Positions 4,127-21,534 of a DNA stretch of 24,539 nucleotides are shown in pieces (the stretch's first letter is position 1; the number at the start of each line of letters is the position of its first letter). Position numbers and translations under genes: made by a program. The notes under the pieces are model-generated. The model saw only the letters and a program-made list of their open reading frames with translations. It had not been told where the DNA came from and searched no databases. Origin of the DNA: a virus; the IMG/VR virus record IMGVR_UViG_3300023049_000335, positions 1 to 24,539 of that record; one strand, given 5' to 3'.

Positions 4127-7100
4127 TTATCCATTGATAGATTGATCGACATCCTCTTGAGTAACAACGCCAGCCTGAGTGGACTCTTGCAACGCTACGA
4201 TAGCGTTTTCGCGATCTTGATCCAATAACAATTGCTCTCTAGCAATCGTCCTAGTAGCAGCTTCTGAGATAATCTCGGAAGAAGGTAACTCCCCATAAAG
4301 CCTCTGAGTAGCCGAGCTTGACTCAAAATATTCAAACTCATAATTTTCAGAAACCTCGTCGATACCTTCGACCACTAATTGATCTTTCTTCTGCTCAATT
4401 GGTGTATTACTATTTGCTTCTCGGGCAGGAACCCCTAATAATTCATTCGATTCTATAATAGCAGAAGCAATAGAATTGTCACGTTTCGTCTTACCCATCA
4501 CTACCATAGCCTTCAATTTAGACATGGCCTCAGTGATCTGAATCTCACGGTCAGTCTTTTTATCACTCTCTTCGAGCTTCTTGAGCCGATAATCAAGTGA
4601 CTCACCCAATGGGTTATCATCCTCTTCACCGCCAGCAGCATCAAGAAGAGCACCACCACCAAGATCGTCACCACCTTCACCGCCGAATAGATCTTCCCCA
4701 CCGCCTTCATCCCCGCCGCCGAATAGATCTTCCCCACCGCCCTCTTCTCCACCACCGAATAGATCACCCCCACCCATATCGCCTCCACCGCCACCTCCAC
4801 CAAGCTCTGGAGTGGTCTCATCACCCATATCAGCATTGCCCTTAAGCATCATCTGCTGAATCTCATCCGGGCTAAGATCGGTAAAGTGGGACAAAATCCA
4901 TTCTTTAGGGAACCAACCAATATCACGAAGGTCAGCCATAATATTCGCACGAGTCTGCCACGTCTCGATTCTGTACAATTCTTCCATAGCAGAATTCACC
5001 ATCATGCTCGTCCAGAAAGAATTCATCTCATCACGAGAATAACCCTTAAGAGCAAGATGAACAAGAGCGATCTTCGTCAGGCCGACCGACATTACCTGTT
5101 GCACCCAAGTAATGTTCTTAGCGAAATCACTACTAGTCTGACTCAACGGTTTCCCATCAGTATCACCACCGGTCTTGTCACCAATACCCAATCGAGATGG
5201 GGGAATCTTGGTCGGAGCGATCATCTTCTTGAGGAAGTATTCAATATCATCAATCTGCCCAAGATTATCAGCTCCCTGCAATGTCTCAATATCAGGACCA
5301 GATCCATCCGGACGCTTAGGCAAGAAGAAATCGTCTTCCTGAGTCAACGGAGCGTAACGCTCGTCGAAGTTGCCGTTGGCCGGATTATAGAATTTCTTGT
5401 TCTTGAATTGTGCTGCAATCTTACGCAAGTATTCAGGAACCTGTTGGCTGGGAATATTACCAACTGGAATCGTGAATTTACGCTTCTGCGGAGCCCTGGT
5501 ATTATGAACTACCATACCATTAGCTATAAAATTATGCTCACCGTTCTCAACAGTGATATCAAACACTTCTTGCTGATCTAAGATATCGATTGATTCAATA
5601 GGCTCAAACAGATCACGAGGATTTGGGCTCACAAACAACTTATAACTAGTATAGACATCATTAAGATGGTTCAATCCAGATTCTCTAGTCCTAGTGCTTA
5701 TCTTCCCTGTTCTGTATCCAACCAAATCGCACAAATGTTTGAAGTCTTCAACGAGATTTTTGTTGCATAATTCTAATGCGAAGTAGTCATATCCAGACAT
5801 ATGGCTATTACCATCAGCTTCAATAAACCCGGTGATAAACGACTTTATCAAATCATGGCTTAGCCCGAATACCCATCCAGGAATCCTTTTAGTTTTTGAT
5901 GTTCCTAAGAACCCCCAAGAACTAACAGTATTGTGTAGAATCTTGTTGCTAGACACTACTTTACGATCGTTCTCAGGACCTTCTTCCCAAGAATTAGGGC
6001 ACAATGTCTTAGCATAGTTAAGGTACCATTGATTAAATGGCTTATAGTCACCAATCGCTAAGGTTATCCTATTACCAGTGGTGACCGAACCATCACCAAC
6101 AATAAACCCGAGATACCTCATCAGATCTATATTAGCCGTTTTCGGTATATTGGGAACTATCTTAATCCCTTTAGATTCTACAATAAGATTGTTAGAATCA
6201 AGATTCAATATTTCACATAATTGTTGAGCCTGACTTAGCGGCATTCTCTTTCTAGCATACAAAAATTGTCTAGTCAGAGTTACGGGATGGTTCAGTTCTC
6301 TCATTGAAGACGTGATATTATCATAATCATTGCTTCTAAACAATTGATATTGTTCATCTGACAGCTTAGCGTACTCAACACCGGCCCATTGCGGTGGTAG
6401 TGAACAATTATCAGGAGAATCGGGGGTTGGAACTACAATATGGTGTCTTCCTGGAACAAGATTCTTGACATCAACATACTCCGTATTCCCCGTGTCTACA
6501 TCCAACGCCAAAAATGGGTGGGTAATTGTTGCATCAAGATGGCGATATTTAGTCTTAACTCTAAAGACATCTTGAATTCCATTACTAATCCAATTCGTTA
6601 CTTTAGTTAATTTAACACCATCTTCTGTATAGCAATAAGCCAAGTCGCCAATCTTTATATCCTTAATTGGAATTGGCCCGTTGCTAGTCATAATTTTACT
6701 GTCACCAGTAAGACACAACCGATAAATGACAGCCGAGCTTTCCATCAAGATCAACTGCTTGAATGCCTTACGTCCACCTTCGATAACGGACTTGCCGTAA
6801 GGGTGGAATTTGGCTTCGAAGTTAGTCAGGCGGAAGTGTACTACTTCCCATGGGTGCAGGAAGTAGGACTGGTTGATTTCCGGGTCAGAATAGTGAAAAG
6901 CGACGAGGTCGCCGTTGGCTGTTTCGATCCGTGTGAAGTTGTAGACATCTAGCCTTTTGAGGCCGACCACGCCGGTACGGGTTTTGTCGAGGACGATGCG
7001 GAAGGCACAGTCGCCGTATTTGCAGAGGTATCGTACGATGGACCGGCATTGGTGGTCCAACATGAGGGTCTTGTTGTAGAGGTTTTGTACCTCTTCTTTG

Positions 7101-7420
7101 ACTCTTGTGCTTTCCCCGTAGACTTGGATGATGTGTCCGGTTTCGGGGTTGACTACGCAGGATTCGTCTGCGTACATGTCAAGGGCGAGAGAGATCTCGC
7201 CCATTTCATCCATTTTGTCATAATCCTTATACCTTTCTCTGCGAAAGTAGTTGACTTGGATGCTCTGTATAATGGCCGATTGTAGGCCATTGCGTTCTGG
7301 ACCAGCACTAGTTAGGGAGTCAAGAGACGGCTGATCCTGGAGAATGTTTTCATGTCGATATAGACCTGAACCACTGATATAAGCTCGAAGTCTATCGAAT
7401 GCTAACCAATTACTCGCCAT
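4127..7420 (-). CDS. 20: Portal protein, T4 gp20-like, interrupted by an intein
   Basis: The 1097-residue precursor contains a portal of about 692 residues after removal of a 405-residue intein (residues 236-640). The portal forms the dodecameric DNA channel at the capsid vertex and docks the terminase. The two exteins rejoin as YRL/TRAPQKRKF followed by IPVGNIP, which is the conserved gp20 signature. Other typical segments are EISLALDMYADE (75-86), the HPWEVVHFRLT region (189-199) and PPSRLGIGDKTGG after the intein. The C-terminal third is unusual: a Gly/Asp/Glu-rich 12-residue tandem repeat, then DNPLGES and a charged, possibly coiled tail. This extension makes it longer than T4 gp20, which has about 520 residues. 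The ATG at 7420 overlaps the 3' end of the homing endonuclease gene by 11 nt. The ribosome site GGTGAAAC is poor. Confidence 0.92.
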   Translation of the reverse strand: MASNWLAFDRLRAYISGSGLYRHENILQDQPSLDSLTSAGPERNGLQSAIIQSIQVNYFRRERYKDYDKMDEMGEISLALDMYADESCVVNPETGHIIQVYGESTRVKEEVQNLYNKTLMLDHQCRSIVRYLCKYGDCAFRIVLDKTRTGVVGLKRLDVYNFTRIETANGDLVAFHYSDPEINQSYFLHPWEVVHFRLTNFEAKFHPYGKSVIEGGRKAFKQLILMESSAVIYRLCLTGDSKIMTSNGPIPIKDIKIGDLAYCYTEDGVKLTKVTNWISNGIQDVFRVKTKYRHLDATITHPFLALDVDTGNTEYVDVKNLVPGRHHIVVPTPDSPDNCSLPPQWAGVEYAKLSDEQYQLFRSNDYDNITSSMRELNHPVTLTRQFLYARKRMPLSQAQQLCEILNLDSNNLIVESKGIKIVPNIPKTANIDLMRYLGFIVGDGSVTTGNRITLAIGDYKPFNQWYLNYAKTLCPNSWEEGPENDRKVVSSNKILHNTVSSWGFLGTSKTKRIPGWVFGLSHDLIKSFITGFIEADGNSHMSGYDYFALELCNKNLVEDFKHLCDLVGYRTGKISTRTRESGLNHLNDVYTSYKLFVSPNPRDLFEPIESIDILDQQEVFDITVENGEHNFIANGMVVHNTRAPQKRKFTIPVGNIPSQQVPEYLRKIAAQFKNKKFYNPANGNFDERYAPLTQEDDFFLPKRPDGSGPDIETLQGADNLGQIDDIEYFLKKMIAPTKIPPSRLGIGDKTGGDTDGKPLSQTSSDFAKNITWVQQVMSVGLTKIALVHLALKGYSRDEMNSFWTSMMVNSAMEELYRIETWQTRANIMADLRDIGWFPKEWILSHFTDLSPDEIQQMMLKGNADMGDETTPELGGGGGGGDMGGGDLFGGGEEGGGEDLFGGGDEGGGEDLFGGEGGDDLGGGALLDAAGGEEDDNPLGESLDYRLKKLEESDKKTDREIQITEAMSKLKAMVVMGKTKRDNSIASAIIESNELLGVPAREANSNTPIEQKKDQLVVEGIDEVSENYEFEYFESSSATQRLYGELPSSEIISEAATRTIAREQLLLDQDRENAIVALQESTQAGVVTQEDVDQSING
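4683..4776 (-). repeat. 36-nt tandem repeat in the portal C-terminus
   Basis: Three copies start at 4683, 4719 and 4755, an exact 36-nt period. The first 23 nt of copies 1 and 2 are identical, and copy 3 diverges after about 11 nt. On the minus strand the unit encodes a 12-residue block of the type GGGEDLFGGGDE. It adds a flexible acidic, glycine-rich linker with a repeated DLF motif to the portal tail. Confidence 0.85.
5501..6715 (-). mobile_element. Intein with LAGLIDADG homing endonuclease in the portal
   Basis: A 405-residue intein (precursor residues 236-640). It begins with Cys (CLTGDSKIM, block A), has block B ATITHPF with the TxxH pair, and ends ANGMVVHN before Thr, so the splice nucleophiles are Cys1, His-Asn at the end and Thr+1. 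The central part carries two LAGLIDADG motifs, YLGFIVGDG (Asp443 of the precursor) and ITGFIEADG (Asp536). Both catalytic Asp residues are kept, so the endonuclease looks active. It sits inside the conserved YRL/TRAP motif of the portal. The DNA is more AT-rich than the flanking 3' extein, which suggests fairly recent arrival. Boundaries were set by splice motifs and by restoring the gp20 signature. Confidence 0.93.
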
Positions 7421-8792
7421 GTTTCACCATTTTAATATTGCCAGCATCCCACAAACGTCGATAACCAGCGTTGAACATATTTTGAGATTCAGTTAGATTT
7501 GGATCAAACAGTTCACCAAGCATTCTTGATAATCTATGTTTCTGACATCTTTGTCTGGATAGTATCTCACTTTTAGTTACATATTTATAATTTGGTTTGG
7601 TTACACACAATTCTTTAAAACCAATCTTCTTGTAAACGTTGCCGGTAGAGTATCTCAAATCAGCAAAAGTGAACAAGTTAGAAATCTTAAACAATTTCAT
7701 CGCATTATTAATCAATCTGGACCCACCACCAATTACTGTTGACCCATTCTTAAAAGCCATTCTTATTAATTCACAGCCACCTTTGGTTTTGCTGATAGAA
7801 ACAGCACCAACGATTGATTTATTAAAAATCAAAGCAAGATAATGACGTGCTGGCCTGTGTCCTTGAAGATGGTTAGCAGAAAAGAAAAGATTGGCCTCTG
7901 ATTCGCTTATTTCAATAATACCGCATTTTCTTGCATGCAATTTTGATGATCTGCCTAAATAGTGACCTATCATTGATTTTATAAGATCTTTCTGATTATT
8001 CCATTCGAAACAATAAAATTGTTTAAGAGAAATATTATTCTTAATTGCTAATAGTGCCTTATCTTGATGTTTTTTCCTTTCTTTTACTGTTTCTTGTTTA
8101 TTGTAAGAATGCCAATAATAACCATGATATTCTATACCGAATTTTAATTCTGGAATATAAATATCTATTTCTAACGGTGAAATCGAAGTGCGATCATTAA
8201 TAACTGTCTCATAACCTAAAGATGTGATATGATCATTGATTAAAAGCTGTCCAGAACTGGTAGAACAAAATTTGCAAGACGGTATTGTTAAATGATTGTA
8301 TGGAGACTGCTGAGAGATGTTACCACAAAGATTGCATTTAAAATCGATTTTATTTTTCCAATTAATAAAAATCGTTTCGCTATAATCAAATAATTCCTTA
8401 TTTGCTTTTATGGCTCTTTCGATATATTCATCATTTGTTATTGATTTGAATTTCTCTCTGTAGTCAGAATCTTCCCATCTTTCTTCTCCCATCTTTCTTT
8501 GGTTTTCAAGATATTCGCCAGATTTTTTAACATCAACTTGATTACTTCTATATTCAGAATCAAGCCAACATTGTTTTGTGGATTCTGAAAATTTTTCGGA
8601 TAAACCTTGCCCAATACATGCTGGGCACTTCCAATCAATCTGATTTTCGACCACGCGGGATTTAACTCTTATAGTAACAATCCTCTCTTTGTTACATAAA
8701 TCGCATCTACATATTACCTTAGGTCTGTAGGCATTTTTGACACATTCTGCACCATATCCGAAATTTCCCTTGGTGGCATTCCAATCTATCAT
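7410..8792 (-). CDS. Free-standing Vsr-like (EDxHD-type) homing endonuclease with zinc ribbons and GNAT-like tail
   Basis: A 460-residue protein that looks like a free-standing homing endonuclease. Two CxxC...CxxC zinc-ribbon patterns (C30/C33...C56/C59 and C153/C156...C173/C176) come first. A Vsr-like nuclease core follows: SPLEIDIYIP with Glu208 and Asp210, GIEYHGYYWHS (219-229) and KHQDK (241-245), the layout of the EDxHD family often found near inteins in phages. The C-terminal part resembles a GNAT or Mom-like acyltransferase: GGGSRLI (355-361) and NVYKKIGF (385-392). It ends with WDAGNIK, a common tail in homing nucleases. The ATG follows the terminase stop directly (TAAATG), and the 3' end overlaps the portal start by 11 nt. 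The gene is strikingly AT-rich (12 G/C in 8341-8400), unlike its neighbours, which supports horizontal insertion. Confidence 0.82.
   Translation of the reverse strand: MIDWNATKGNFGYGAECVKNAYRPKVICRCDLCNKERIVTIRVKSRVVENQIDWKCPACIGQGLSEKFSESTKQCWLDSEYRSNQVDVKKSGEYLENQRKMGEERWEDSDYREKFKSITNDEYIERAIKANKELFDYSETIFINWKNKIDFKCNLCGNISQQSPYNHLTIPSCKFCSTSSGQLLINDHITSLGYETVINDRTSISPLEIDIYIPELKFGIEYHGYYWHSYNKQETVKERKKHQDKALLAIKNNISLKQFYCFEWNNQKDLIKSMIGHYLGRSSKLHARKCGIIEISESEANLFFSANHLQGHRPARHYLALIFNKSIVGAVSISKTKGGCELIRMAFKNGSTVIGGGSRLINNAMKLFKISNLFTFADLRYSTGNVYKKIGFKELCVTKPNYKYVTKSEILSRQRCQKHRLSRMLGELFDPNLTESQNMFNAGYRRLWDAGNIKMVKHGE
7582..7589 (-). promoter_or_regulatory. Perfect T4-type late promoter box inside the homing endonuclease gene
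   Basis: The minus strand reads TATAAATA, the T4 late-promoter octamer recognised by gp55-type sigma. It is about 160 nt upstream of the portal start and would give a leader of about 150 nt. It falls within codons for YKY of the endonuclease in AT-rich DNA, so chance is a serious alternative. A plus-strand copy of the same octamer occurs at 8156-8163 in the same gene, which weakens the case. Confidence 0.3.
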
Positions 8793-11700
8793 TTACTTGC
8801 CATAATATGATTTTCTCTTGACTACAGGTGCTTCCACCTTTTTTCGGTCGCCAAGCCAAAGGTCACGGGCGAATCCGGCCACTTGATCCTCGTATGACGT
8901 GGATTCAGGACCGTTAGGTTCGTCGTGGTCGACCGATACTGGTGACACCAAATTCTGATCGTATGCGATAATGGTTTCGTCTGAAGTGGTGGTAGCGAAA
9001 GCAATATCCTGATCGATCTTGAAAGGTAATACTTTACTTTTATTTGGATCAGGATTGCTAACCAGTGCCACCAAACCAAGCCCCGCTCCGAGGCAAAGGT
9101 CATCATGACAACCGACTTCCGCACCAGTTTTACCAGTGGGTCTACCACCACGATCTCGGTGATTAATGTATGTGCACAATTGGTCATGCAAGCGTGAACT
9201 ATAAACCTTCACGCATTCAGGCCGACCAAGTAGGTTGATCATCATCTTATTCAGGCCAATCTTACTAATATCAGTCGTAAAATGACCATAAGGATCAAGC
9301 TTCGGTTTTACCCCAGCTTTATCAGGAATTCTAATCCTACGCCAGAGATTAGGATAACCATACTCAAGCCGAAGCTCATCGATTACACCATCACCACCAT
9401 TATTGCGTTCCACATTAACCAAAGCATTATTATAGAAACGCCCAAGCATATCAACATATGGACAAAGCATCTTCGGGATGCAACGCATCATCATTTCAGC
9501 AACTTGCTCACCAGTCTCTAGGCAAAAGACTTCAAGAGCATGAAAGTCATTGCCACGACCAGTCATCGTATCAACGCCCATCGTGTAGGTATAACCCTGT
9601 GGGGCGTCCGGGTGTTGACGGACAGGCATTTCCCAGAACCAGAGGCCCTGATTCCCTTCAAAATCGAAATCCAACTGAATCGGCTCCCGTCTGATCGGGT
9701 GCATGTATTGCTGAATCCCCTTAGCGATCTTGAGGGGCTTGCGAACCATTTCATCGATAGCATCAAGATTCAGAGCTGGCAAAACAGTCTTACCAGAGCT
9801 GACCACGCGGGCTAAGATTTCTTGGTCGAACTTCCATGTTTCTCCTTCTTCCGCTAGAGCATTATACTGCTTTTGCAACCAGGGAGACCAATATGGGCCG
9901 TACTTCTCTCTTTCTTCAGATGTAACGCATTCTCGAATACCATCACATGGGGCAATTCTAACTTGCTCGTTGGTACCCTTATCCTTGTACTCGATCTCCC
10001 AATCCATGTCATACCAATTGATGGTAATGAGATTGAACCCGTTGGCATTCTGCTCAGCTCCCTTGAGCATTTTGTAGTACCAATCACCCATACCGTTCAA
10101 CGTAGAAACCACAATCACACGACCACCGTGTTGGAGTGTGTTGTGGCTCACAAGACTGTTTGATACGTAGCAGTGTTTTTCGGGGACTTGGATGTCGAAT
10201 GTTTCTCGAATGTCTTCTTCGACTTTAACGATTTTGTCGACGAAGAGCTTATTCTTCACGAGCCAACTATTGATGTCGCCTACTTCATGCTTGAATAGGC
10301 CATTAATATCGTTGTATCGAATTCGTCCATAAGACCCACATCGGGTGATTTCTTCATCACCGGGGTTCTCACGAATCAGAGTGTTGCATTCGGCTTCGAA
10401 AAGGTGGACCAATACTGGATGGTCGGTGTTGTATGATTGGCCGGATTCTGCACAGAGTCGTAGGTCGTGGCGGGTTGAGTAGAAGTGTTCTGAGAAGGTG
10501 TTTCCGAGATCGGAGTCGACGATTATTAATCGGTGGTGTCCAGCCGATGTCTGGGACACTGAGATCGGGAATCCAAAATCGAACATGATGTTTTGGATGT
10601 CTCGGACCAATTCTTGGCTGTCGAATATTGCTCCGATTCGTTTTCCGCTAGCACTTTGTGAATCGATTATGCCACAAAGAACATGGTAGTAGTTGTCGCG
10701 TCCCAGTTCTAGAATCTCATCACTGATTCGTCGTTCTGTTGGTTCAGTGGTTAGCGAGATGCCGTATTTTTCGGCTAGTTCGAACGCTTTGGGAGAGCTG
10801 ACTTTTAGTTGTCGTTTGTTGATGACGAATCCGTCTTGACCAAAGTATTCGGTTAAGACGTCGATGAATTCTGTGGTTTGTAGTTGGCTGTTGAATTTGG
10901 TGTGGATTTGTTTGCCGACTACGTGACCTCTGCTGAATAGGATACCAGCAAGGTAGAGTTCTGGGTTGACTTTTTTGATTTCTGGTGTGTCGCCCAATCG
11001 GACTACGATGTATTCACCGGGTGAGGCATCGTTCATGTAACGCCAGACGTACTCACCGTTGGGGTCGATGACTCTGAATCGGTGGTTGGGTGTGGTGGTG
11101 AGTTCGAGCCCTAGGTCGGTTGTGATTTTGCGGACTGGTCCTGTGCCTGATAGGTAGACTTTGTCGGCTGGTAGGATTTCTTCGTCTGTTTGTACTTTGA
11201 TGTCGATGTCTTGCCATCGTTCTTTTCCGCTGACAAGCGAATCCATACGGATTAGCCCGGTGTCAGTTGTCAGTAGCGTTTCAGCTACGACGCAAGAATA
11301 ACCTGATGCCCACATACGGTCCATACTCGGAATAAAGGCTGCTTCGTCAATAATATTTAGTGACGCGGAGTGGGATCGTAGAACTTCGGAGCTGCTTGTG
11401 AGTGATTTGATGCTTGAGCCATTGGGGAATACTATTTCGTGCTCGTTTCGTTTTTCGGGTTCCCAGAGCTTTTGCATCCATTCTGGTAGGTTGTCGAACA
11501 GGAAGGTGATGTTACGTCTCAAGAAGCCTTTCGCGTCGTCTTCTTTCTTGGAGATGATGAGGATGGCTTGATATGGGAAGAACATTCCCTGGTGGAGTGC
11601 GTAGGCTCCGGAGATTTGGGAGATGCCGCATTGTCGGCATTTTCTTACGATGTTGAACCTGTGGCTGTCGAATTGGCTTAGTGCGTTGAGTTGATACTTG

Positions 11701-11813
11701 AATGGGTTAAACGGGATGATGCCAGCTGATGGGTGCTGAATGTGGCAATGTTGGGATAGGAAATATGCGATAGAGCTTTGGCATTTGTGTATTTCTTTTT
11801 CGAGTTCGTTCAC
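8793..11813 (-). CDS. 17: Large terminase (ATPase/nuclease), T4 gp17-like, interrupted by an intein
   Basis: The 1006-residue precursor contains a 621-residue terminase (T4 gp17 has 610) plus a 385-residue intein at residues 174-558. This is the packaging motor: an N-terminal ATPase and a C-terminal RNase H-like nuclease. The Walker A equivalent is RKCRQCGIS (57-65), a deviant form without the usual GKT. Walker B and the catalytic Glu are IIDEAAF (154-160). The coupling motif is STLNG (570-574). Nuclease residues are visible at Asp748 (MGVDTMTGRGND), Glu802 (VNVERNN) and His903-Asp904-Asp905. The start is GTG at 11813, with AAGGG 6 nt upstream, sharing one base with the TAG stop of the small terminase. 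The stop touches the ATG of the homing endonuclease. Confidence 0.94.
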   Translation of the reverse strand: MNELEKEIHKCQSSIAYFLSQHCHIQHPSAGIIPFNPFKYQLNALSQFDSHRFNIVRKCRQCGISQISGAYALHQGMFFPYQAILIISKKEDDAKGFLRRNITFLFDNLPEWMQKLWEPEKRNEHEIVFPNGSSIKSLTSSSEVLRSHSASLNIIDEAAFIPSMDRMWASGYSCVVAETLLTTDTGLIRMDSLVSGKERWQDIDIKVQTDEEILPADKVYLSGTGPVRKITTDLGLELTTTPNHRFRVIDPNGEYVWRYMNDASPGEYIVVRLGDTPEIKKVNPELYLAGILFSRGHVVGKQIHTKFNSQLQTTEFIDVLTEYFGQDGFVINKRQLKVSSPKAFELAEKYGISLTTEPTERRISDEILELGRDNYYHVLCGIIDSQSASGKRIGAIFDSQELVRDIQNIMFDFGFPISVSQTSAGHHRLIIVDSDLGNTFSEHFYSTRHDLRLCAESGQSYNTDHPVLVHLFEAECNTLIRENPGDEEITRCGSYGRIRYNDINGLFKHEVGDINSWLVKNKLFVDKIVKVEEDIRETFDIQVPEKHCYVSNSLVSHNTLQHGGRVIVVSTLNGMGDWYYKMLKGAEQNANGFNLITINWYDMDWEIEYKDKGTNEQVRIAPCDGIRECVTSEEREKYGPYWSPWLQKQYNALAEEGETWKFDQEILARVVSSGKTVLPALNLDAIDEMVRKPLKIAKGIQQYMHPIRREPIQLDFDFEGNQGLWFWEMPVRQHPDAPQGYTYTMGVDTMTGRGNDFHALEVFCLETGEQVAEMMMRCIPKMLCPYVDMLGRFYNNALVNVERNNGGDGVIDELRLEYGYPNLWRRIRIPDKAGVKPKLDPYGHFTTDISKIGLNKMMINLLGRPECVKVYSSRLHDQLCTYINHRDRGGRPTGKTGAEVGCHDDLCLGAGLGLVALVSNPDPNKSKVLPFKIDQDIAFATTTSDETIIAYDQNLVSPVSVDHDEPNGPESTSYEDQVAGFARDLWLGDRKKVEAPVVKRKSYYGK
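10140..11294 (-). mobile_element. Intein with degenerate LAGLIDADG domain in the large terminase
   Basis: A 385-residue intein (precursor residues 174-558) that starts with Cys (CVVAETLL), has block B TTTPNHRF, and ends SNSLVSHN before Thr. Splicing restores WASGYS/TLQHGG just ahead of the STLNG coupling motif. The two LAGLIDADG helices are recognisable but damaged: LAGILFSRG has Arg295 where the catalytic Asp belongs, and LCGIIDSQS has Gln386 there. Splice-junction residues are intact, so the endonuclease is probably dead while splicing is kept. Base composition is close to that of the surrounding phage genes, unlike the portal intein, which fits long residence. Confidence 0.92.
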
Positions 11814-15433: not shown

Positions 15434-18400
15434 TCAGTTCAACACGCATTTGTCAGAATCACAATATTTCTCACCAACGGCTTCTTCAACCAACTGAGAC
15501 ATATCAATCTCTTTCAAACCAGCAAGATAATCCCTCACTTCTTCACGATCAGCAGCTTCATAAGGAGCTTGTACGTACCCATGGTTCGTCTTCGGCAGGA
15601 AACTCACTGCCTTGATTCGATCCTCGTAATGAGACAGAATCGTGGGAATGTCTTTGGCTTCATCCGGATCGAACTTGATCGTCACGCTAACGGCATTGTC
15701 AGCCCAGTAGTATTGCATTGAAGCAACATTGTCCATCTGTTCCCAGATCGAAACATCGGCTACTGGACGGACGCCCTCATCTTCGACACCGAACTTGACA
15801 ACGATAGTATTGTCCGGATCAGTAACAGAAGGCTCAATGTGATAACCCGCTTCTGCAAGGATACCAACCAGCGAGTGATTCTTATTAATACGCATTCGAC
15901 GCCAGTATGACCGGGCCTCAGGAAAGTGAACACCAGGAGCCACACCAGCCAGTAGGCTGACTGTGCCAGACGGCTTGACACTGGTGACTTTGACTGATTC
16001 TCGACAGGTGAGCCATTCACTGTAAATGTTATCCCATCTTCGGATTTCGCTGTAGGCAGCATCGCAGAAATTCTGCAGGTATCTACGTCGCCCGAACTTC
16101 TCCATCGCCTGGACAATACCTGATTGGCTCAAGCCAATCCGGCGATTACGAAGCATAACGCGGTTGGTGCGGTTATTGTGAGTCGGCAAGAGCGTGACCG
16201 TTTTGCCGTACAAGTAAGCGTACTTGATGGTCCGCATGTAATCGTCTTCATTGTCATGCTTCGACGGGAAAGTCTCGACAAGATTACACAATTCGTACGA
16301 TTCGAGGGTCTGTTCTACGCATTGTCCAACTTGATAACCATTAACAACAACTTGATTGGTTTCTGGTTCAGTCAAGCAGTAAACTGGTTGCCAACCAATT
16401 GATTCGATCGATTCGATGTTAACATATCTACCAGTATTAGAATTATTTGAACCACGATGACTTTGTAACCATTGAACGGCTTTTGCAGATTTCCAATCTT
16501 GAATAAATCCGATATCATCTAAGAATTTAGAAGTTTGTTTTATACCAGAAACAATTAACTCCCAACCTGGCTTACAATTATATTCTTTAAGACCACCTTT
16601 ACCATCATTCATTTTCAATTTGCGTTCATTGTGTCGAAACTGAACAGTGGACGCAATACCAAGTTGATTGAGCAAAAGACGACATTCACGCAACAAAGAA
16701 TCATTTACTTGCCAAATTCTAATAGAAATAGAATTCTTAGTTAAATTGACATAGCCATCTGCAGAAGCTAAACCACGAAGGAATGCACAAAGTGTGGCTT
16801 TCGTGCCGTTTAAAACGCTAAAGGGCACTTGGTGTTTATTTCCACAGATAACACCATCTTCGGCTAAAAGACGACCTAAAACATTTGAACCAATTCTAGT
16901 CTCTTGATGATCAAATGAAGAACCCGAAAAATCTCTTTCCCAACCGGCATACTCTGGCTGAACATTTTTAGATTTACTATGAGTTTCAAACAATTGTAAC
17001 ATCAATCCACGCAAACGTGGCAAAACATCAACAGAATCTTCATCATAAACAGTACATTCTGCTCTTGTTTGGCCAGATGATCGTGGGCTTAAAGACCCAT
17101 CGCCAATACACCATCCAGAAAGCTCAGAATAAACAGGATCATGAAATGTGCCGAAATGAACTTGCTGATTTAAAGGTATCAATTGACCAATTTGCAAATT
17201 GGCCAATTTGCATCGCTGCTCATCAAAAAACGTTTTCTTTTTCCCGCCACCAATTCTACGCACAGTACGATTAAGAACTATAAATTCATGAGTTTCTGTG
17301 GCATCAATCCATGAACCATCATTGAATTTAACTCTAAAAACTTCTTGGTTGTCACCAGTTTTATAAATTTTAGTGGCTTTAGAAATTCCATTGTTATTAA
17401 TAATAGATTGGCTACCATATTTATCTAGCATGTCGGCATCAAAACCATCAAACAACAATGCTCCTTGTTCTTTCCACAAATTCTCAATGTTTTTGTAACC
17501 AGAATCTGTAAACAAATTTCCAGAACCAGCAAAGCATGGGTTGCTCCCCATCACACGACCATCAATCCCAGGCTGAAAACCGTCTTTCATGCGGCCATAA
17601 TCCCGCATGTTATCAAGCCAGATGTAACCGGGTTCGCCGTTAGCAGCTGTTTGCTGGCCAACGTCAGTGTAGTCCATGCCGATTTCGCTGAACACTGAAT
17701 TGTTTGAAGCCCAGCGACGATCGTTGCAAGCGTTCCAGACGTCAATTGCTCTATCGAGCTTATCGCTCTGGATATCGCATCCAGTGAAGTCTTCAACGGT
17801 CGCTGAGTAACGGTTTTTGCCATAAAGGTCGCCAGTGACCTTGTAGAATTTCTCGGTTTCTTCGCCGCTCAGATCTCGAACGGGGTTCTTCATCGAGCGA
17901 TATTCAATATCGCCAGGGAAACCAAATGCGATCTCAGCACTTCGTCGGACGTTACCCGCGACGACGCATTTGCCGACCATGTTCATCAGATCGGTAATAT
18001 CAACGCTGTTCATGCGTCGACCGACCATTTTGCCGAAGAAATCATCGACACGGAACAATAGTTTTTCGAGTTCACCGGGGCCTGATGCTTCGCCGCCGAA
18101 TCCTTTAATAGGTGTTCCGTTGGGTCGGATTTCACTGAAGTCGTAGGTGAATCTGCCGTACTCGGGATGTAGTGTGTAGGAGTGCACCAGATCGATGAAT
18201 GCCAAGACCCATCCTTCTCGGCTGTCGTCGATGATGTATTTGGTTCGTCTGTCGACGGGTTTGCGAACCATTACTACGTCGGCTCCCTTTGTGTCAAATC
18301 CGATGCCGACGCCCAACATGAGCATGTCCATTGCGAAAGCAAAGGGTTGGGCCGGGTCTTCGTGGAAGTCTTGGTTCGTGCTGACGAATCCGCAGTTACC

Positions 18401-19885
18401 AGTAAGAATATTACCAGCCAATGTGAAACAATAAGTTTCAGGAACTTGAGGACAAAAGACTTCTTCTGTTCTACAAGTGGATTCCACAGAATCGACATAC
18501 CATGACTGATATGTGGAGATCTTCTTCCGACTTGCACTAATTCGAATTTCGAATCTTTCACGATGATCATCGATCAAGAAAAATTCTGGATTAAGGTACT
18601 CGGCCATCAAAGTAAGACGATATCCAATAAATTTCTTAACTTGTCCATCTTTTTTGATTGTCTGCAGACCTTGTGAGATCTCGAACGTCCCAATTCCAAG
18701 AATAGCACAAACAGATTGAACAAGTTCCAAATTTTGCCGTTCAGATGATGCAATTCTGACAGTCCCCTTGTCGGTGACGTCTCCATCAGCTGCAAAATAT
18801 CCGCACAAGAAACCGTAAAGGTAAGTCAACGATTCGTTTAAATCTGGAGCCCTTCTAAAAGCTCTCGGGAGATCAGCAACACGTATCGCACCGTGTTCAC
18901 CCCTTTCTGGGGCTTCAGTGCGATGGGACGCAAGGAAAAACCTTTCTAGCTGTGCGTCTTTGGGTTTGCATAAATACAAATATGTTCCATGACTTTCATT
19001 ATCCGATCCGGTTGTGCCATCGCCGAAACAGACACCATGAGCGATACCAAACGCACTTGGTCGTAAATTGGAATTATTAATTCCTTGACCAAAATTCATT
19101 GACAACCGAAGACCATCTTTCAACTCTTCAGTGGTACATTCACGAGTACAAGTATTATTCGAATCATCGGCAGCACCAACTGTGGCGAATTTTCGTGATT
19201 TAGAATGAACAAACCAACGGTGATCTGGAGTGGCATGAATAACTTTACGCCATCGACCACGACGGAGCACAACTTTAGTAAGTTGTTGTTCTCCAAAGCT
19301 TTTGATTTTCGCATCGACCCATTTGCCACCAGAAGTCAAAATCTTTTGTGTGGTGTTGACGCAATCGCCAAGCTTTTTGATCCCTTCTCTTGTGATAAAT
19401 TCTGTCTCGTGTGCGAAACAATTATTTAATCCTGCTCCGCCTGCTCGCCACATGAATGGTGTGCCCATGACCCAAAGGCCGCGTCCGGGCGGGACGAATT
19501 TGAAGTCCCAGATGCGTTGGAACATTTCTTGTGCTGAGTCTTGTGCTCGCATCCTGTCCCATGGGAGGTTGAATCGGTGGCAGTGTCGGCGTTGGATTTC
19601 GAATGTTCCGTCGACGACTCGATTGATTGTTTCCCAGAAGTGTTCTTTGCCGCCGTTTTCTTTCAGCCTTGAATAGGTGCGATAATAGGTGACTTCGCCT
19701 AGTCCGTTGTATCCAAATTCAGGGTCTCGTCCCTTGAATCCGTTGAGGAATGAGTCGTTGAGGCCGAATTCCTCGTCTGGCCCCGCTGTGAATCCGTAGC
19801 TGTCTACTACGTTCCTTACTATGCGGGTTGAATTGTGTACTGTGTCGTTACTGTGAAAATTGGGATCTGACAAAAGACCGGACAT
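15434..19885 (-). CDS. nrdJ: Class II (adenosylcobalamin-dependent) ribonucleoside-triphosphate reductase with two inteins
   Basis: The 1483-residue precursor yields a 736-residue enzyme after loss of inteins of 342 and 405 residues. Lactobacillus leichmannii RTPR has 739. The single-chain enzyme makes dNTPs from NTPs using a B12-generated thiyl radical. Diagnostic segments are VPPGRGLWVMGT (131-142), NNC/GFVST with the first redox Cys (L. leichmannii C119), and NPC-V-E with the radical Cys (C408) and Glu (E410). ESYELC follows, with the second redox Cys exactly 11 residues on (C419). The C-terminal pair C1475/C1480 has the same spacing as C731/C736. All catalytic residues appear present. The ATG at 19885 has GGAGAG 7 nt upstream, and the gene starts 4 nt after the preceding gene. 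It would supply precursors for phage DNA synthesis and depends on host cobalamin. Confidence 0.93.
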   Translation of the reverse strand: MSGLLSDPNFHSNDTVHNSTRIVRNVVDSYGFTAGPDEEFGLNDSFLNGFKGRDPEFGYNGLGEVTYYRTYSRLKENGGKEHFWETINRVVDGTFEIQRRHCHRFNLPWDRMRAQDSAQEMFQRIWDFKFVPPGRGLWVMGTPFMWRAGGAGLNNCFAHETEFITREGIKKLGDCVNTTQKILTSGGKWVDAKIKSFGEQQLTKVVLRRGRWRKVIHATPDHRWFVHSKSRKFATVGAADDSNNTCTRECTTEELKDGLRLSMNFGQGINNSNLRPSAFGIAHGVCFGDGTTGSDNESHGTYLYLCKPKDAQLERFFLASHRTEAPERGEHGAIRVADLPRAFRRAPDLNESLTYLYGFLCGYFAADGDVTDKGTVRIASSERQNLELVQSVCAILGIGTFEISQGLQTIKKDGQVKKFIGYRLTLMAEYLNPEFFLIDDHRERFEIRISASRKKISTYQSWYVDSVESTCRTEEVFCPQVPETYCFTLAGNILTGNCGFVSTNQDFHEDPAQPFAFAMDMLMLGVGIGFDTKGADVVMVRKPVDRRTKYIIDDSREGWVLAFIDLVHSYTLHPEYGRFTYDFSEIRPNGTPIKGFGGEASGPGELEKLLFRVDDFFGKMVGRRMNSVDITDLMNMVGKCVVAGNVRRSAEIAFGFPGDIEYRSMKNPVRDLSGEETEKFYKVTGDLYGKNRYSATVEDFTGCDIQSDKLDRAIDVWNACNDRRWASNNSVFSEIGMDYTDVGQQTAANGEPGYIWLDNMRDYGRMKDGFQPGIDGRVMGSNPCFAGSGNLFTDSGYKNIENLWKEQGALLFDGFDADMLDKYGSQSIINNNGISKATKIYKTGDNQEVFRVKFNDGSWIDATETHEFIVLNRTVRRIGGGKKKTFFDEQRCKLANLQIGQLIPLNQQVHFGTFHDPVYSELSGWCIGDGSLSPRSSGQTRAECTVYDEDSVDVLPRLRGLMLQLFETHSKSKNVQPEYAGWERDFSGSSFDHQETRIGSNVLGRLLAEDGVICGNKHQVPFSVLNGTKATLCAFLRGLASADGYVNLTKNSISIRIWQVNDSLLRECRLLLNQLGIASTVQFRHNERKLKMNDGKGGLKEYNCKPGWELIVSGIKQTSKFLDDIGFIQDWKSAKAVQWLQSHRGSNNSNTGRYVNIESIESIGWQPVYCLTEPETNQVVVNGYQVGQCVEQTLESYELCNLVETFPSKHDNEDDYMRTIKYAYLYGKTVTLLPTHNNRTNRVMLRNRRIGLSQSGIVQAMEKFGRRRYLQNFCDAAYSEIRRWDNIYSEWLTCRESVKVTSVKPSGTVSLLAGVAPGVHFPEARSYWRRMRINKNHSLVGILAEAGYHIEPSVTDPDNTIVVKFGVEDEGVRPVADVSIWEQMDNVASMQYYWADNAVSVTIKFDPDEAKDIPTILSHYEDRIKAVSFLPKTNHGYVQAPYEAADREEVRDYLAGLKEIDMSQLVEEAVGEKYCDSDKCVLN
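16322..17536 (-). mobile_element. Intein 2 of the reductase (LAGLIDADG, ends in Gln)
   Basis: A 405-residue intein (precursor 784-1188) inserted between NP and the radical-site Cys. It starts CFAGSGNLF, has block B ATETHEF, LAGLIDADG motifs GWCIGDG (Asp929) and FLRGLASADG (Asp1043), and ends VNGYQVGQ before Cys. The last residue is Gln instead of Asn and the one before is Gly instead of His, both non-standard. The boundary is fixed by restoring NPC-V-E and the exact C408-C419 spacing. The endonuclease motifs keep both acidic residues. The DNA is more AT-rich than the exteins. Confidence 0.92.
17187..17212. repeat. Overlapping 16-bp palindromes inside reductase intein 2
   Basis: The 26-nt stretch is CCAATTTG-CAAATTGG-CCAATTTG-CA. 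This makes two perfect 16-bp palindromes, at 17187-17202 and 17195-17210, that share their middle eight bases. It lies in coding DNA for ANLQIGQ, between block B and the first LAGLIDADG motif. Whether it binds anything is unknown, and it may be coding coincidence. Confidence 0.5.
18395..19420 (-). mobile_element. Intein 1 of the reductase (LAGLIDADG)
   Basis: A 342-residue intein (precursor 156-497) inserted between GLNN and the first redox Cys. It starts CFAHETEF, has block B ATPDHRWF, LAGLIDADG motifs HGVCFGDG (Asp289) and CGYFAADG (Asp367), and ends AGNILTGN before Cys. The terminal Asn is normal but the preceding residue is Gly rather than the usual His. The boundary restores NNCGFVST, which matches the family. 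Both endonuclease Asp residues are present. Confidence 0.92.
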
Positions 19886-20817: not shown

Positions 20818-21182
20818 GAAGATAGAGGTTCCGAAATAAGAAGATCAATTGATTTCTTGGTCTTCTTATTCACTTGCGGATACGCCGCGATCAAAGCCTT
20901 AACCACTGGATTCTGTTCATCAAGAATGATTTTCTTGATTTGAACCTGTGCGTCACCGATCATAATGACGTACATCCCTTCAGCTTCGTCCAATTGTAAA
21001 TGCTCTTTAACATTAGATGAGACTTTCTCAATAGCCTCATCTTTATTAGCTATACCATCGCTGATTTGTAGATCAGCGAAAGTATCAACGGCCTGGATGA
21101 GCTTTTCGAAGTTGTTATAAGTATAACTGAATTTATCTTGATCGAAATGAACATTCCAGAGTATAACTGATTTTTCAGACAT
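20814..21182 (-). CDS. Hypothetical protein (122 aa)
   Basis: Not recognised. A soluble acidic-basic mixed protein with predicted strands at the start (SVILWNVHFD) and in the middle (GMYVIMIGDAQVQIKKIIL) and a lysine-rich C-terminus (VNKKTKKSIDLLI). No motif is visible. The ATG overlaps the last 8 nt of the cupin gene, so the two are probably translated from one message. The TAA overlaps the stop of the convergent plus-strand gene. Confidence 0.7.
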   Translation of the reverse strand: MSEKSVILWNVHFDQDKFSYTYNNFEKLIQAVDTFADLQISDGIANKDEAIEKVSSNVKEHLQLDEAEGMYVIMIGDAQVQIKKIILDEQNPVVKALIAAYPQVNKKTKKSIDLLISEPLSS

Positions 21183-21534
21183 TGTGTCGCACTATATCAA
21201 AGACGGGTTTGGACCAATACAATTCCATTATGACTCCGTCCTCTAAAACTTGAAACTGATGAATTACACCAGGATGAATGGTGGCACGCTCACCGGAGAC
21301 AAGATCCACAAAGCGATCAGGATTAATTAAATCATCTTCGTGGAAATGATTGATCCGAATCTTTCCCGAGATTACTATAATCTCATTGTAATCACGTGCA
21401 TGATGATGCACACTACATTTACCATCGCCATCGCCCTTCACTATAAATCCCTGCCAGACCATCACACCATTGTAAGAACCGAGATATGCCGATTTGCCCC
21501 AGTTCTTGACTTGATAATCTAGCGGATCGTTCAT
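21175..21534 (-). CDS. Small single-domain cupin
   Basis: A 119-residue protein with both cupin motifs. Motif 1 has HHH at 43-45, Glu51 and Gly57. Motif 2 has HPGVIH at 87-92 with the last metal-ligand His. These fit a metal-binding beta-barrel of the small cupin type. Such proteins include isomerases, dioxygenases and non-enzymatic sugar- or ligand-binding proteins, and the substrate cannot be told from sequence. It overlaps the gp6-like gene by ATGA and the next gene by 8 nt, so it belongs to the baseplate operon. A structural or sugar-binding role in the virion is possible but is inference. Confidence 0.8.
   Translation of the reverse strand: MNDPLDYQVKNWGKSAYLGSYNGVMVWQGFIVKGDGDGKCSVHHHARDYNEIIVISGKIRINHFHEDDLINPDRFVDLVSGERATIHPGVIHQFQVLEDGVIMELYWSKPVFDIVRHNV

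Follow-up and report, generated by a model that had tools for sequence, protein, structure and literature searches.

In the ribonucleotide reductase (RNR) RTPR of L. leichmannii, C119 and C419 form the redox pair, C408 is the thiyl-radical cysteine, and C731 and C736 are the shuttling pair. Inteins, for their part, favour conserved active-site motifs. A viral DNA of 24,539 nucleotides (IMG/VR record IMGVR_UViG_3300023049_000335, positions 1 to 24,539; the whole stretch is referred to herein as the window) carries an RNR gene in which two inteins each directly precede an active-site cysteine. An earlier note on this DNA, made from the letters alone, held that both inteins use a catalytic cysteine as the +1 splicing nucleophile, that they are very hard to lose, and that they could make dNTP synthesis dependent on redox state. 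Are these cysteines shared between splicing and catalysis, how often has such an arrangement arisen, and does it control the enzyme? We conclude herein that the placement of inteins directly before such cysteines is a recurring and mostly understood outcome of intein site preference. The explanation that best fits the locus as a whole, a class II RNR precursor with two homing inteins whose acceptor cysteines are also the catalytic ones, is very likely correct.

The reductase and its catalytic cysteines

The open reading frame at 15434-19885 is identified by its sequence as encoding a phage monomeric class II (adenosylcobalamin/B12-dependent) RNR (Table 1). With residues 156-497 and 784-1188 removed, the spliced protein aligned over its full length with L. 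leichmannii RTPR (1L1L; phmmer, E=6.8e-98), which itself has no inteins, and the alignment takes in LNNC (C119), NPCVE (N406-C408-E410), C419, and the C-terminal CX4C. In the window, the last of these reads CDSDKC, which we take to be the equivalent of C731/C736. The same alignment puts the two +1 nucleophiles on 119 and 408 and the next cysteine on C419, so that both assignments first proposed, as well as the spacing of 11 residues between C408 and the second redox cysteine, are borne out. The range given for the feature, 16319-19420, is exact: its two ends are the opening codon of intein 1 and the codon of the Cys at +1 of intein 2.

Table 1. Features of the RNR gene and of other parts of the window (a slash in a motif marks a splice junction)
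Feature	Position	Strand	Evidence
RNR gene with two inteins; 1483-aa precursor, 736 aa spliced	15434..19885	-	1L1L 6.8e-98; TIGR02505 6.8e-95 (bits below its cut-off, precursor used as query); phrog_367 1.6e-122
N-extein, residues 1-155, ends ...GAGLNN	19421..19885	-	ORF translation, 1L1L alignment
Intein 1, 342 aa, residues 156-497, predicted HINT + LAGLIDADG endonuclease, C1...TGN/C (N342)	18395..19420	-	AlphaFold, 1dq3 match, LAGLIDADG_3 1.4e-6
Intein 1 Cys1, class 1 nucleophile	19418..19420	-	65/65 family members with aligned residue
Intein 1 block B, His67 (B:10) to Trp69 (B:12), W of WCT triad	19214..19222	-	His 70/70, Trp 70/70
Intein 1 Cys323 (F:4), C of WCT triad	18452..18454	-	69/69; Cys part of scan pattern
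Intein 1 Thr340 (G:5), T of WCT triad	18401..18403	-	67/69; Thr part of scan pattern
Intein 1 +1 Cys, RTPR C119 equivalent, first redox Cys	18392..18394	-	1L1L alignment (LNN-C)
Middle extein, 286 aa, C119 equivalent to ...GSNP	17537..18394	-	ORF translation, 1L1L alignment
Intein 2, 405 aa, residues 784-1188, LAGLIDADG endonuclease, C1...VGQ/C (Q405)	16322..17536	-	LAGLIDADG_3 2.6e-14; Intein_splicing 3.4e-5 (under curated cut-off); intein_Nterm 5.9e-7
Intein 2 Cys387 (F:4)	16376..16378	-	conserved across six aligned site-2 inteins
Intein 2 C-terminal Gln405	16322..16324	-	translation; Gln also in five other site-2 inteins (see text)
Intein 2 +1 Cys, RTPR C408 equivalent, thiyl-radical Cys	16319..16321	-	1L1L alignment (NP-C); L008 empty site
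C419 equivalent, second redox Cys, 11 residues past C408	16286..16288	-	1L1L alignment
C-terminal CX4C (CDSDKC)	15446..15463	-	ORF translation
Intein-interrupted genes (T4-type portal protein, large terminase)	4127-7420 (residues ~236-641); 8793-11813 (residues ~174-559)	-	profile matches
Free-standing homing endonuclease between terminase and portal genes	7410-8792	-	phrog_3339 1.8e-86
Cupin-like protein beside baseplate genes	21175-21534	-	phrog_7851, cysteine dioxygenase, 5e-10

Splice junctions and intein folds

Both inteins lie in frame, are missing in relatives, and contain blocks A, B, F, and G. A sister phage on a 116-kb contig (L008), the RNR of which is 84% identical to that of the window, has intein 1 and an uninterrupted site 2 that reads ...GANPCVEQNLESYELC. 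Two other relatives, L027 and L028, lack both inteins, and their sites run without interruption as ...LNNCGFVST and ...NPC[LM]EQSLESYELC. The empty sites of these three relatives prove both junctions and fix them to the codon, exactly where they had been placed from the sequence alone. The same two-intein gene is present on four near-identical contigs and is therefore no assembly error. For two random positions preceding C, S, or T, the probability that both would be catalytic cysteines is p=0.0025, a value that is not independent evidence for function, because inteins prefer conserved active-site motifs in any case.

For intein 1, an AlphaFold model (pLDDT 89, pTM 0.89) predicts a splicing domain of the HINT fold together with a LAGLIDADG endonuclease. 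The closest solved structure is PI-PfuI of Pyrococcus furiosus (1dq3; Z 25.0, rmsd 2.8, 311 residues aligned), an intein endonuclease from an RNR, which differs in its length of 454 aa and is 16% identical. The model of intein 2 was unusable (pLDDT 35), and its fold thus rests on sequence profiles. In an alignment of 12 members of the intein-1 family, no member departs from the others at the splicing residues or at D134 and D212, the acidic residues of the LAGLIDADG endonuclease; the invariance of this acidic pair suggests that the family is recently or still mobile.

Recurrence at the active-site cysteines of RNRs

The first redox cysteine serves as the +1 residue in 36 of the 38 non-redundant, RNR-hosted relatives of intein 1 (34 in class II and 2 in class III); of the two exceptions, one is unalignable and the other has an ill-defined end. 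An apparent group of class I hosts was an artefact of reference proteins that still contained inteins and disappeared once these were removed, so hosts are claimed for classes II and III only. In the class III NrdD of a Morganella phage, the +1 residue of the intein is position 79 in T4 NrdD numbering, where T4 NrdD has its active-site C79.

Ten further phage RNRs of classes I and II carry an intein directly before the thiyl cysteine. Those of class I (NL/C) belong to SPBc2, Staphylococcus SPbeta-like, Staphylococcus RP15, Proteus, and Brochothrix phages, and those of class II (NP/C) to Thermus phage TSP4, Bacteroides phage DAC23, and the loci L204, L009, and L010. The BnrdE intein of SPbeta/SPBc2, which like related class I inteins sits at NL/CSE, is a distant homologue of intein 2, but it differs in having a class Ib host RNR, Asn at its end, and Asp at F:4. 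In TSP4 (L192:1921-4710), the NP/C408 intein extends across two ORFs about 30 bases apart, either as a split intein or through a frameshift in an unverified record.

In the extreme case, the RNR of a relative (contig G001; IMGVR_UViG_3300045256_000188, loci L201:3501-5579 and L280), a single open frame of 3046 aa contains six inteins. Two tandem relatives of intein 1 occupy the C119 site, the +1 Cys of the first being Cys1 of the second; a relative of intein 2 lies at NP/C408 and a further intein at EL/C419; the remaining two lie at VRR/T and PSG/T. The last two sites indicate that RNR inteins target conserved motifs generally, with catalytic cysteines favoured but not the sole targets. The C419 intein of G001 is homologous to the C408 intein of L009 (29% identity, 2e-35), their sites being 11 residues apart. 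Essential RNR cysteines, that is, C119, C408, and C419 in class II, C79 in class III, and the thiyl cysteine in class I, have been recruited repeatedly as splicing acceptors by distantly related or unrelated inteins. In A. aeolicus NrdB, too, the active site of an RNR is interrupted by a LAGLIDADG intein, the splicing of which joins metal-ligand residues (PMC8772380); however, NrdB is the radical-generating R2 subunit, and no description of its +1 Cys, which has metal ligands on either side, makes that residue catalytic.

Site-1 inteins were found in 3 of 160 class II loci (L033, L081, and L150) when the query was free of inteins; L008 to L010 were found through intein 1 and hence give no estimate of how often site 1 is vacant. 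Few RNRs of marine viruses hold inteins (8 of 18,726; PMC12918982). Relatives of intein 1 also occur in non-RNR phage genes (L205, L214, L224, L226, and L227), often before the first Cys of a CxxC, such as NAN/CLGC, or YW/CFGC in a Toprim primase.

Gain, loss and persistence

On a tree of 28 class II RNR rows, occupancy changed at least seven times at site 1 and at least four times at site 2. Site 2, empty in the sister phage L008, holds in L009 a different intein, unrelated or very distant, which matches intein 2 over only 33 residues. Inteins can thus be lost, replaced, or gained. The view that they are very hard to lose agrees with the retention of intein 1 in the window, L008, and L009, but it fails at site 2 and against the changes counted on the tree. 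Among these three phages, the protein sequence of intein 1 is better conserved than that of the enzyme (92% versus 77-89%, and 80% versus 62-77%). Four-fold sites are near saturation, at about 37-43% identity in intein 1 versus 24-53% in the exteins. Recent homing of intein 1 among the three was rejected, as four-fold divergence is about equal in intein and exteins.

Intein 1 combines features of two intein classes

The combination of Trp at B:12, Cys at F:4, and Thr at G:5 (WCT) is the signature of class 3 inteins (PMC7664689), and Cys-His-Thr has been described as a protease-like triad (PMC5050341). Cys1 is absent from class 3 inteins, the block B of which generally reads DxxH (PMC6195587). 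The intein-1 family, assembled from a family scan and the first set (88 inteins, 70 of them non-redundant at 90%), shares the triad with class 3 inteins such as MP-Be DnaB, Msm DnaBi1, and Mch DnaB1: Trp is present in 70/70, Cys in 69/69, and Thr in 67/69 members. The F:4 Cys and G:5 Thr were part of the scan patterns, so these two counts are biased upward; Trp and Cys1 lay outside the patterns. Unlike class 3 inteins, the family has Cys1 (65/65), TxxH with Thr at B:7 (69/70), and almost always Cys+1 (68/69). Intein 1 itself has W69, C323, and T340 alongside C1, T64xxH67, N342, and C+1. The Cys of TYCFTL was rejected as its F:4 residue, being missing in L010, whereas that of EEVFC is invariant in the family alignment.

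Could intein 1 be a class 3 intein in mechanism? Cys323, activated by His67 and Thr340, would then attack the N-junction first and hand the N-extein to C119, leaving Cys1 dispensable. The full WCT triad in the family argues for such a route, with the reservation that two of its three residues were written into the scan patterns. The retention of Cys1 in every member with a residue aligned there and of Thr B:7 in all but one argues the other way, as does the splicing-domain profile of intein 1, which matched class 1 inteins in the PDB (DnaE, 2.3e-6; gp41-1 carrying an engineered WCT, 1.6e-4) but, with hits accepted up to E=10, nothing of class 3. On the latter ground, direct kinship with class 3 was rejected; structural Z-scores, about 17 for class 1 and class 3 alike, did not separate the two. 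We consider a class 3 mechanism unlikely. Judged from its residues, intein 1 is class 1 by definition and probably by mechanism too, with the class 3 triad already present. Given that the family keeps Cys1 and TxxH together with WCT, the F:4 Cys may join or replace the first splicing step. Further still, the family might be a living intermediate between classes 1 and 3, specialised on the first redox cysteine of several RNR classes, in which two competent N-junction nucleophiles would allow splicing to start from either Cys; we regard this as rather doubtful.

WCT inteins with Ser or Cys at position 1 were reportedly described by Tori and Perler (2011), so the combination of WCT with Cys1 may have precedent. 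Its fixation across an RNR-specialised intein family appears to be new relative to the searched literature, and such a natural family offers a test bed for the origin of class 3 inteins from class 1. The class II RNR of Thermobifida phage P318 has a relative of intein 1 at the same first redox cysteine, again with WCT and Cys1; it differs from intein 1 in ending with Gln, and the P318 RNR has no second intein. WCT together with Cys1 also occurs in the C408 intein of L009 (RNR residues 766-1030).

Intein 2 ends in glutamine

Intein 2 has the class 1 features C1, TETH, and C+1, with Phe at B:12 and Val at G:5 and hence no WCT triad. Its last residue is Gln405 instead of Asn, a point absent from the earlier note. 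Gln also ends the thiyl-site inteins of L010, L009, Staphylococcus phage RP15, Bacteroides phage DAC23, and G001. Counted before G001 was included, terminal Gln occurs in 5/11 site-2 inteins versus 1/69 members of the intein-1 family (Fisher p 1e-4), or in 4/9 site-2 inteins by lineage (p 4e-4). Intein 2 pairs this Gln with Pro at -1, each of which slows some inteins.

These features bear on whether the gene is dead, with one or both inteins degenerate and unable to splice. Intein 2 lacks the terminal Asn, and the penultimate His is missing in both inteins. Against this, the splicing residues and the catalytic residues of the exteins are intact, intein 1 is more conserved than the enzyme, and Gln-ended inteins recur at site 2 in independent phages. 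Gln-ended inteins able to splice are known: the RNR intein of Chilo iridescent virus (CIV), likened to intein 2 by description and different in that its host is a eukaryotic virus, splices with its native C-terminal Gln (PMC4031507). A mycobacteriophage intein with a penultimate Gly even outperforms its own His mutant in splicing (PMC5050341). A dead gene is thus very improbable.

Splicing, enzyme activity and redox state

The preferred reading is that of one precursor carrying two full-length, endonuclease-bearing inteins that splice. Cys1 of each would form a thioester at the N-junction, the chain would be transferred to the catalytic +1 Cys, and cyclisation of Asn (intein 1) or Gln (intein 2) would release the intein; the enzyme barrel would then fold into an active reductase. 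Because each intein directly precedes an active-site cysteine, the same residue would serve first as the +1 splicing acceptor and then as the redox (C119) or thiyl-radical (C408) cysteine. As insertions of 342 and 405 aa break up the active-site barrel, we infer on sound grounds that the RNR is inactive until both inteins are excised, as was first suggested. The inteins would be kept mainly as homing elements, their endonucleases recognising strongly conserved codons; the catalytic-Cys positions may be hot spots because they are conserved and supply the +1 Cys.

Redox control of dNTP synthesis through the inteins is possible but unsupported. Oxidation of Cys1, the F:4 Cys, or the catalytic +1 Cys would pause splicing and keep the reductase off. 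Three cysteines do converge at each splice centre, one of them a redox cysteine of the RNR, and there is a precedent in M. smegmatis DnaBi1, the F:4 Cys of which makes a disulfide under oxidants, whereupon splicing stops (PMC6195587). On the other hand, oxidant sensitivity in vitro is common to any Cys-based intein. No non-catalytic cysteine among those checked in intein 1 is conserved in the family (C20 in 4/70 and C206 in 3/70), and no dedicated disulfide partner is therefore evident. The sister phage L008 does without an intein at site 2, so control via intein 2 is not a conserved need. We hold such a switch to be improbable. Two inteins in one enzyme, with empty-site relatives, nonetheless provide a system for asking if the supply of dNTPs to the phage is limited by splicing. 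Work at the bench would be best spent on the hybrid WCT/Cys1 family and on the thiyl-site inteins that end in Gln.

Other features of the window

Rfam and tRNA scans across the window found nothing. A free-standing homing endonuclease and a cupin-like protein are encoded elsewhere in it (Table 1). The genes for the T4-type portal protein and the large terminase are also intein-interrupted, which brings the number of inteins to four in 24.5 kb.
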